34,589 bases of DNA from a virus. The stretch covers positions 1 to 34,589 of the IMG/VR virus record IMGVR_UViG_3300014933_000057, one strand, 5' to 3'. This document shows positions 27,031 to 30,803 of this stretch, piece by piece. Under the pieces are notes generated by a model, which was given only the letters and a program-made list of their open reading frames with translations, was not told the DNA's origin and ran no database searches. The translations under genes were made by a program, and so were the position numbers. Positions within the stretch are counted from its first letter, which is position 1. The number at the start of each line of letters is the position of its first letter.

Positions 27031-27046
27031 ACCGCAACATTGCGGT
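27031..27046 (-). promoter_or_regulatory. 5'-end hairpin, copy A of three
   Basis: On the minus strand ACCGCAATGTTGCGGT forms a 6-7 bp hairpin. It begins 7 bases after the -10 of the adjoining promoter, so it would sit at the extreme 5' end of the mRNA, 36 bases before the AUG at 27010. Its arms differ from copies B and C by paired changes. Confidence 0.75.
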
Positions 27047-27094
27047 ATTGGTTAATTTACTAAAGATAACTTTAGAAGTAAAGCAATATTTAGC
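27047..27094 (-). promoter_or_regulatory. Early promoter, copy A (leftward)
   Basis: On the minus strand: AT-rich element GCTAAATATTGC (27094-27083), -35 TTTACT (27082-27077), 17-base spacer, -10 TAAATT (27059-27054). The spacer contains the inverted repeat CTAAAG-TTAT-CTTTAG. It shares architecture and most bases with the promoters at 29359-29406 and 30046-30092. Confidence 0.75.
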
Positions 27095-29421: not shown

Positions 29422-29652
29422 ATGACGGATGCACAATTAATTGATATGTTGGGCCGGCCAGCAAAGGTAGCAAAGCTATGCGGCGTAACGGTTCAAGCGG
29501 TGTGTCAATGGCGCAACAACAACCAAATACCGGCCGCACCATTGATGCTGATAGCCGCAACCATTGAAAAGGAAAGTCACGGCCTAGTAACTAGGAAAGA
29601 CCTTTTCCCTGATACTTGGATGCTTATTTGGCCGGAGTTAAGCACGGTTTAG
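29422..29652 (+). CDS. Cro/YdaS-like helix-turn-helix regulator
   Basis: A 76-residue protein with AAGGA before the ATG. Residues 13-38 (PAKVAKLCGVTVQAVCQWRN) form a helix-turn-helix of the Cro/YdaS type, with Gln-Trp-Arg at the end of the recognition helix and IPAAPLMLIA following as in Cro-like dimers. It sits between divergent early operons, the classical position of Cro. No CI-type repressor or integrase is seen. Its DNA target is unknown: candidates are the spacer inverted repeats of promoter copies A and C, or the palindromes at copies A and B. Confidence 0.82.
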   Translation: MTDAQLIDMLGRPAKVAKLCGVTVQAVCQWRNNNQIPAAPLMLIAATIEKESHGLVTRKDLFPDTWMLIWPELSTV

Positions 29653-29657
29653 TTTTA

Positions 29658-29666
29658 TGATATAGT
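29658..29666 (+). promoter_or_regulatory. Extended -10 promoter of the small RNA
   Basis: TGA-TATAGT, an extended -10 (TGn plus 5 of 6 consensus bases), six bases after the stop of the Cro-like gene. No good -35 is present at the usual distance (best TTAAGC). A start near 29672-29674 is expected. Confidence 0.5.
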
Positions 29667-29671
29667 TCTAA

Positions 29672-29791
29672 ACATTGAGGACTTGAACACTCATGGATAG
29701 GGTTTTATTGGTGGTTTTAGGGTTTAAGAAATAAGATTAGAGGTATTTCTTAAGCCGTTCAAGCTAAAGCTACCAATAAAGCCCTTTTTTT
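29672..29791 (+). ncRNA. Candidate structured small RNA with intrinsic terminator
   Basis: About 120 nt, between an extended -10 promoter and a seven-T run (29785-29791). Bases 29699-29720 pair with 29764-29785 over 22 bp, with three G-U pairs and no bulge. Inside, 29721-29733 pair with 29744-29756 over 13 bp, one G-U, with a 10-base loop. The only unpaired bases between the two stems are the seven at 29757-29763 (GTTCAAG), perfectly complementary to CTTGAAC at 29682-29688 upstream of the first stem. That gives either a pseudoknot or an alternative fold. No reading frame is visible. A second CTTGAAC occurs at 29915-29921. This is far larger than a simple terminator for the Cro-like gene. The function is unknown; an antisense or regulatory RNA is inferred. 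Confidence 0.65.
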
Positions 29792-29794
29792 ATT

Positions 29795-30045
29795 TGTTCA
29801 CTTCCCATCGTTCTGATTGGGGATTCACCACCACCAGCGGTCAGGATAGAAGCGTTACTGGGGGATCAAAGGATGCAATAGCGCAAATGTAGGTGGCGAA
29901 GATAGTGCCTACTCCTTGAACGACTGTCGGGTTCTGTGGCTCCATATAGGGAAAACAGTTGAAGGCGAACCAGGTGGGCTAGGTTCGTCCACCAAACGGG
30001 AATTAGCATAAATACAACAGTTATTAGATATTAGGGTATATCACT
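29795..30045. other. Non-coding region, possibly structured
   Basis: 250 bases without a gene between the small RNA and the rightward promoter; no frame of useful length or ribosome site. It is richer in G and C than its flanks. Possible helices on the plus strand include TCCCATC with GATTGGGGA (29803-29823), GTAGGT with GCCTAC (29889-29894, 29907-29912), CGACTGT with ACAGTTG (29921-29927, 29955-29961), and two mutually exclusive hairpins at 29966-29993. It could be an RNA, or the replication origin, given that the replication genes follow. I see no iterons. Confidence 0.35.
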
Positions 30046-30092
30046 AGAAAATAATGCTTTACAAGTAAAGATTACTTTAGTAAATTATCAAT
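30046..30092 (+). promoter_or_regulatory. Early promoter, copy C (rightward)
   Basis: AT-rich AGAAAATAATGC, -35 TTTACA (30058-30063), 17-base spacer, -10 TAAATT (30081-30086). The spacer holds the inverted repeat TAAAG-ATTA-CTTTA. Close to copy A from the -35 element to just past the -10, although on the opposite strand. Confidence 0.78.
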
Positions 30093-30108
30093 ACGGTCAA
30101 GTGATCGT
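30093..30108 (+). promoter_or_regulatory. 5'-end hairpin, copy C of three
   Basis: ACGGTCAAGTGATCGT, starting 6 bases after the -10 and 34 bases before the AUG at 30127. The stem is kept (one G-U) although the inner arm bases differ from copies A and B. Confidence 0.72.
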
Positions 30109-30126: not shown

Positions 30127-30429
30127 ATGAAATACGTAATTAATTACAAAGACCAGCAATTCAAATACCGCGCCAATGATTGGCAGTCTTTTGAAAAAGA
30201 AGCTTGGGATATTTTTACTTGGGTTTTGCATCATCCTGAACAAGAATCTGAATATCAATTTGTCATTGACGGCAAAGTTGTTTCATTAGAAGCCGCACAA
30301 AAAGCCGCCCAATTAGCCCGTAAAGAATGGGAAGAAAAACGTGCCAAAACTAAAAAACCGGTACGTATCAGCGTTGGCGCAACTAATTTGCCAAATACCT
30401 ATAAAACTGTTTGGGTAAAGATAATCTAA
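30127..30429 (+). CDS. Hypothetical protein, first gene of rightward early operon
   Basis: A 100-residue protein with AAGGA before the ATG. N-terminal beta (KYVINYKDQQFKYRANDWQS), then a tryptophan-rich helix, a hairpin (EYQFVIDGKVVSLEAA) and a basic C-terminal half (ARKEWEEKRAKTKKPVRISV). It is moderately basic overall. It directly follows the leader with hairpin copy C. The family is not recognised. Its stop overlaps the next start by one base. Confidence 0.65.
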   Translation: MKYVINYKDQQFKYRANDWQSFEKEAWDIFTWVLHHPEQESEYQFVIDGKVVSLEAAQKAAQLARKEWEEKRAKTKKPVRISVGATNLPNTYKTVWVKII

Positions 30430-30803
30430 TGTTTGAACAATTTTGGAAACATTACCCCAGGAAGGTAGCCAAACGTGCCGCCCTGGGGGCATTTAACCGG
30501 CTTACTAAAGACGAACAAGTTCAGGCCGTAGAAGCCATTGAACAACACGTTGCGTACTGGAAGTTAAAGGGCACAGAAATGGAGTTCATATGTCATGCAA
30601 CCACGTGGCTTAACCAGGGCCGCTGGGAAGATGAATTAGACATGACACCAAAAGAACTAAAGCGACCTTCATTACCTTGGTATAGTACCGATGAATTAAC
30701 TTTGGCTAAAGGCCGGGAATTGGGACTAAATGCATACGCCGGGGAATCTATGGGACAGTACCGACAACGTATCCAGCAATACATCGGAAAGATGGCGGTA
30801 TGA
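30429..30803 (+). CDS. Replication-associated phage protein domain
   Basis: A 124-residue protein from the ATG at 30429 (TAATG overlap). FEQFWKHYPRKVAKRAALGA, then FNRLTKDEQVQAVEAIEQHV and FICHATTWLNQGRWEDEL is a block usually found as the C-terminal part of phage replication initiator / helicase-loader proteins; here it stands alone with a short tail. It may recruit the host helicase, or be a remnant or split of a larger initiator. The frame of the next gene is +1 relative to this one and overlaps its end by about 70 bases. Confidence 0.55.
   Translation: MFEQFWKHYPRKVAKRAALGAFNRLTKDEQVQAVEAIEQHVAYWKLKGTEMEFICHATTWLNQGRWEDELDMTPKELKRPSLPWYSTDELTLAKGRELGLNAYAGESMGQYRQRIQQYIGKMAV

Follow-up and report, generated by a model that had tools for sequence, protein, structure and literature searches.

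One place where lambdoid phages settle whether replication goes ahead is the stretch that separates cro from the replication genes. Short structured RNAs that open an early operon and follow a termination/read-through logic are known from phages P1 and P7 (c4 antisense RNA), P4 (CI RNA) and Gifsy-1 (IsrK). The c4 and P4 CI RNAs act through exposed complementary segments. The RNA described here, called RNA1, resembles these three in kind and position, whereas the only complementary segments recognised in it appear to be paired internally and it has no Rfam match to such models. IsrK is transcribed from its own promoter and follows a terminator/read-through logic (PMC4825925).

Other known RNAs resemble RNA1 in single properties. 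The phi29-type prohead RNA is also a phage RNA of about 120 nt with covarying loop pairing, but RNA1 differs from it in fold, gene context and terminator. The put RNA antiterminators of HK022 are, like RNA1, structured RNAs near cro in a lambdoid-type early operon; RNA1, however, ends in a conserved terminator, so its own terminator is not suppressed. Like 6S RNA it is a long hairpin transcript that has a conserved bulge, but the bulge of RNA1 is one-sided, paired (in the helix K1 described below) and unlike an open-promoter bubble, and there is no Rfam match. A type III toxin-antitoxin RNA was considered and rejected, as RNA1 is present in single copy and the next genes encode a hypothetical protein and a replication protein, with no ToxN-like nuclease. 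The Rfam family RF02932 occurs in the same phages, on the same strand and 18 nt 3' of RNA1, and is a usual neighbour of RNA1. The two have no sequence or structural match, and each occurs without the other.

RNA1 was studied in a 34.6-kb virus record (IMGVR_UViG_3300014933_000057), which carries P22-type head genes (portal, scaffold and major head protein). The whole stretch of 34,589 nt is referred to as the window, and the positions of its features are given in Table 1. The original prediction, made from the window alone, was of a stand-alone small RNA beside a Cro-like gene and between divergent early operons. The neighbouring gene is indeed Cro-like, the -10 element of RNA1 beginning 9 nt past its stop codon, but the locus lies inside a rightward unit. 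As to standing alone, RNA1 has its own predicted promoter and terminator but it is not isolated, since a second structured RNA candidate (RNA2) follows immediately 3'.

Table 1. Positions of RNA1, its structural elements and neighbouring features in the window, with examples of the uncatalogued RNA2 from related loci.
Feature	Position	Strand	Basis or remark
Cro-like / YdaS-like repressor gene	29422..29652	+	phrog_35 5.8e-17, PF15943 1.7e-9, PF14549 3e-7; directly 5' of RNA1
Extended -10, TGA-TATAGT	29658..29666	+	predicted RNA start about 29672-29673
Hairpin P1 (ATTGAG ... CTCAT)	29674..29695; strands 29674-29679 / 29690-29695	+	98.3% of P1 cells paired in 35 relatives, 2 double-change pairs
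Kissing strand K1a, CTTGAAC, in P1 loop	29682..29688	+	covaries with 29757-29763
P2 5' strand, 22-bp terminator stem	29699..29720	+	direct reading, folding, alignment of relatives
Hairpin P3, 13 bp (29721-29733 / 29744-29756), loop 29734-29743	29721..29756	+	folding, alignment of relatives
Kissing strand K1b, GTTCAAG, bulge between P3 and P2 on the 3' side	29757..29763	+	245/245 cells paired
P2 3' strand	29764..29785	+	folding, alignment of relatives
Seven-T run, intrinsic terminator tail	29785..29791	+	direct reading; kept in nearly all relatives
RNA2, Rfam RF02932 Betaproteobacteria-1 RNA	29810..29932	+	85.8 bits (gathering 49.4), E 1.1e-14; 18 nt past RNA1
Replication-initiation-like gene	30411..30803	+	phrog_270 1.5e-21; 3' of RNA1
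Uncatalogued RNA2 of about 230 nt, example	L195:887-1126	-	replaces RF02932 3' of RNA1
Uncatalogued RNA2 of about 230 nt, example	L245:832-1071	+	replaces RF02932 3' of RNA1
Uncatalogued RNA2 of about 230 nt, example	L006:5386-5615	+	replaces RF02932 3' of RNA1

The minimum free energy of RNA1 was -47.0 kcal/mol, compared with -23.3 +/- 3.3 for 200 dinucleotide shuffles (z -7.17, no shuffle as good). Direct reading and folding both returned the predicted stems of 22 bp (P2) and 13 bp (P3), which together include four G-U pairs and are free of mismatches. The other predicted elements were read directly from the sequence as well: the seven-T run, the extended -10 (TGaTATAGT) and the bulge GTTCAAG with its exact complement CTTGAAC 69 nt upstream. 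The prediction had offered two interpretations of this complementarity, a pseudoknot, thought to be strained by a 10-base linker and the 22-bp stem, or a switch that would unwind the terminator stem. The strain argument failed, as CTTGAAC, rather than being part of a free linker, occupies the loop of a hairpin at the 5' end, P1. Most relatives have P1 as ATTGAG/CTCGAT; the version in the window is weaker, one base of CTCGAT being lost. Since CTTGAAC is the loop of P1, the pair is, judged from the sequence, a loop-bulge kissing pseudoknot, denoted K1. Presented in this way, CTTGAAC allows P1, P2, P3 and K1 all to coexist, and no unwinding is required. The linker strain falls away because P1 (about 7-8 bp) on K1 (7 bp), together with a linker of 3-5 nt, roughly spans 22 bp, which is two turns of A-form helix; this estimate is arithmetic only.

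From two protein searches 148 viral loci were obtained; in most of them RNA1 is found directly 3' of the cro-like gene. For the alignment A2, 35 distinct RNAs of the window type (window included) were picked by promoter, P1 and T-run motifs, with K1 left unused. Over the whole structure 97.1% of the cells were paired (shuffles 89.6%, slid controls 32-52%), and 21 pairs showed double changes, compared with 12.5 in the shuffles. All cells of K1 were paired (245/245), with changes on both sides at five of its seven pairs; one pair shows all four Watson-Crick forms, two cells are G-U, and slid controls reached 10-39%. An independent set was obtained by scanning 2.9 million viral contigs with a P1-only pattern and applying a covariance model without the pseudoknot. 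It comprises 33 distinct RNAs, among them that of the window and those of a few loci collected before; some loci of the pattern scan are chance matches. K1 was complete (7/7) in 32 of the 33, in ten distinct sequence combinations, while mismatched combinations reached 7/7 in 49/854 cases. These counts, like those of the other sets, are of distinct sequences and not of independent events, the material being mostly metagenomic and some contigs near-duplicates. Antisense matches of the covariance model were discarded as the mirror of the hairpin. The sole exception, L203, has lost the 3' half of RNA1. At L203:3850-3972 this half is replaced by the inside of a type-B RNA2, by a deletion or in an assembly chimera.

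The covariance-model search for homologues in other phages had been proposed together with the original prediction, which would have failed had homologous loci shown no compensatory change in the stems and the CTTGAAC/GTTCAAG pair. Both kinds of change are present in the homologues, and the covariation of K1 supports the pseudoknot option. On this comparative evidence we regard RNA1 as a real and new family of phage RNA with a kissing-loop fold, predicted to be independently promoted and terminated.

Among 67 distinct relatives, a hexamer was found 6-7 nt before P1 in every case, and in 66/67 it matched TATAAT at five or more of the six positions, as against 11% in shuffles. TGA or TGG precedes the -10-like hexamer in 43/67 distinct RNAs, and all 14 RNAs of type III (see below) have TATAAT or TATACT at the promoter position. 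Given the usual discriminator of 6-7 nt, transcription is predicted to start at the foot of P1. At the other end, the 22-bp stem is followed at once by TTTTTTT, so that an intrinsic terminator can be predicted from the sequence. One relative (L062) has TTTGT in place of the U-run, and the distance from K1b to the U-run is 19-22 nt, being 21 or 22 in 63/69 descriptor matches. No conserved reading frame was seen in the RNA1 alignment. A leader peptide was tried as a candidate and rejected: the window (ATGGATAGG...) could encode 13 amino acids, but relatives stop early or are without ATG.

Two further subfamilies were recognised. Type II (P1 with GCG/CGC; alignment A3) keeps K1. Type III (L148, L245-L249, L251 and L258-L264) has a very different P1 and linker and retains K1, a 23-bp P2, the 13-bp P3 and the U-run; P2 is near 22 bp in all three subfamilies. 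A further long-range pairing, K2, is found in type III, where it joins the P1-P2 linker to the apical loop of P3. It occurs as CCATGCC/GGCATGG, GGCTTGGGAT/ATCCTAAGCC, GCCCTTTAT/ATAAAGGGC, AATCTAC/GTGGATT, GGTCAAC/GTTGACC and others. K2 was first spotted by eye, and the additional sequences on which it was subsequently tested were retrieved with a P2/P3 pattern that leaves K2 out. The own score of K2 was 8.25 compared with a cross score of 4.43, and 0/100,000 permutations were as good; for K1 in type III the scores were 7.06 and 3.03 (35/100,000 permutations). If P3 folds back, P3 and K2 together (about 20-23 bp) would match the length of P2.

In one clade, the linker GCCCTTT can pair with AAAGGGC either at the 5' end or in the apical loop (L246:880-1009, L249:1-111). 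The two folds exclude each other, and a local switch is possible there. This pairing in L246-L249 is what favours the earlier idea of a terminator-unwinding switch, with CTTGAAC competing for the stem, but such an alternative is confined to this small clade. The only partners of CTTGAAC in the main type are bulged bases, which leaves no competition, and the apical loop carries no pairing signal to the 5' region of RNA1 (own 4.01 against cross 4.04). A switch is needless where all helices are compatible, and we consider it very improbable for the family.

The neighbouring RNA2 is of more than one type. Nearly every relative with readable downstream sequence has a second structured RNA about 20-30 nt 3' of RNA1. 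Among the 67 distinct relatives, about 30 have RF02932 and about 35 an uncatalogued RNA of about 230 nt, while L238 differs. The uncatalogued type has no Rfam match, and its alignment A7 contains 44 pairs, 20 of them with double changes. Both types occur with the same type of RNA1, which means that the two slots assort independently. RNA2 is also found without RNA1 (L043, L079 and L123-L126), in some cases right after cro; as L043, L079 and L124 show this arrangement, RNA1 is dispensable for that region. By eye, no promoter-like hexamer was evident between RNA1 and RNA2. Phages without RNA1 have such a hexamer close 5' of RNA2 and no replacement terminator before it. In the window, the conserved sequence seems to continue about 80 nt beyond the RF02932 model, to about 30010 (29810-30010), and includes a conserved GGTGGGCTAGGTTCGTCCACC hairpin.

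A strong terminator right after cro could simply end the cro transcript, in which case the extra pairing would be accidental. A terminator needs neither K1, which covaries in every subfamily, nor K2, which does so in one, and a terminator in this place is not replaced in phages that have RNA2 and no RNA1. The covariation in the alignments largely refutes such an explanation, to which we give hardly any credence.

We propose instead the following mechanism. Shortly after the cro-like gene, a promoter of the sigma70 type would give a transcript of about 118 nt, starting at the base of P1 and ending at the strong intrinsic terminator. The P1 loop would kiss the 7-nt bulge between P3 and P2, creating a three-way junction and a compact, closed fold with the 5' end in or beside P1 and the 3' end at the base of P2; in type III, the apical loop would additionally pair back to the P1-P2 linker. 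Once released, the RNA would be trans-acting, either as a regulator of RNAs of the phage or the host or as a protein-binding RNA, and its terminator would limit read-through into RNA2 and the replication genes. That RNA1 is such a trans-acting product, which also gates read-through, seems to us somewhat more probable than otherwise. With 22 bp between K1 and the U-run, termination should not depend on K1; the selection on K1, which is maintained in every subfamily, therefore suggests that the RNA has a function once it is released. As to the gate, the apparent lack of a promoter-like hexamer before RNA2 means that the RNA1 terminator should limit the RNA2 and replication mRNA made from the RNA1 promoter.

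It is also conceivable that RNA1 is a gate only, a cis-acting attenuator whose pseudoknots tune folding or read-through, with no RNA acting in trans. Most transcripts from the RNA1 promoter and cro would then stop at RNA1, and a fraction, or a modified polymerase, would read through to give RNA2 and the replication mRNA. The order promoter-RNA1-terminator-RNA2, fixed in relatives with readable downstream sequence, is consistent with a gate of this kind, as are the position of the hexamers in phages with and without RNA1 and the phage precedents for short terminated RNAs with read-through products (IsrK, PMC4825925). K1, however, lies 22 bp from the U-run and is compatible with the terminator, so that it makes no obvious antiterminator, and the main type is without a conserved mutually exclusive fold; we hold a gate alone to be unlikely.

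Kissing between molecules was considered as well, in which RNA1 would form dimers, rings or chains through the P1 loop and the bulge, like the phage prohead RNA. Covariation would be the same for contacts within one molecule and between identical copies. The helix lengths fit closure within one molecule, P1, K1 and the linker roughly spanning P2 by the arithmetic given above, and no packaging gene adjoins RNA1, which makes an intermolecular contact quite improbable in our view.

Going further than the trans-acting product with a gate, RNA1 might be the founding member of a class of phage RNA, a compact multi-helix bundle with a trans-acting role, whose target would be a protein or an RNA of the host or of the phage. 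In the bundle, P1 with K1 would lie alongside P2, joined in type III by a folded-back P3 with K2, and the helix lengths would roughly match. With RNA2 it would form an interchangeable two-slot module of noncoding RNAs between cro and the replication genes. We put this forward as a tentative suggestion.

RNA1 is present in roughly 100 freshwater virus contigs. A search of Rfam release 15 (4227 models) gave no match to RNA1 at gathering score, the only match being RF02932, downstream of it; the best weak match over RNA1 was MIR831, with 21.5 bits against a gathering score of 100. No DNA similarity to GenBank phages or plasmids was found, and the two closest GenBank phages, MW202674 and MW202520, are without RNA1 by the covariance model. 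A scan of bacterial genomes with the cro protein returned only two metagenome-bin contigs and one Pseudohongiella. In 274 genomes RNA1 was unmatched, which is uninformative because the RF02932 control was likewise unmatched. In the open-licence literature nothing was found on RF02932 or on a phage RNA of the shape of RNA1. Within the resources searched, the architecture of RNA1 and the two-RNA module appear to be new, structured phage small RNAs being an already known kind. A phage noncoding RNA absent from Rfam, with pseudoknots backed by natural compensatory changes and accompanied by a second uncatalogued RNA, the RNA2 of about 230 nt, opens a defined test of the roles of noncoding RNA between cro and the replication genes.

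Some further observations concern the surroundings of the locus. MW202520 (L267:3700-3945) has a different candidate RNA after its cro-like gene, a terminator-ended hairpin that ends in GGTGAAACC-TTTTTTTT and is unannotated as RNA. In some relatives (L065, L069 and L074) the cro-like gene and the RNA region are separated by an inserted gene (ATGAAAGTTTTAGTAGCTTGTGAG...). The window contains two operator-like stretches that are 81% identical, 30049-30094 (+) and 27045-27091 (-), with CTTTAC-AA-GTAAAG palindromes, each upstream of a gene, and similar GTAAAG motifs also precede the cro-like gene.
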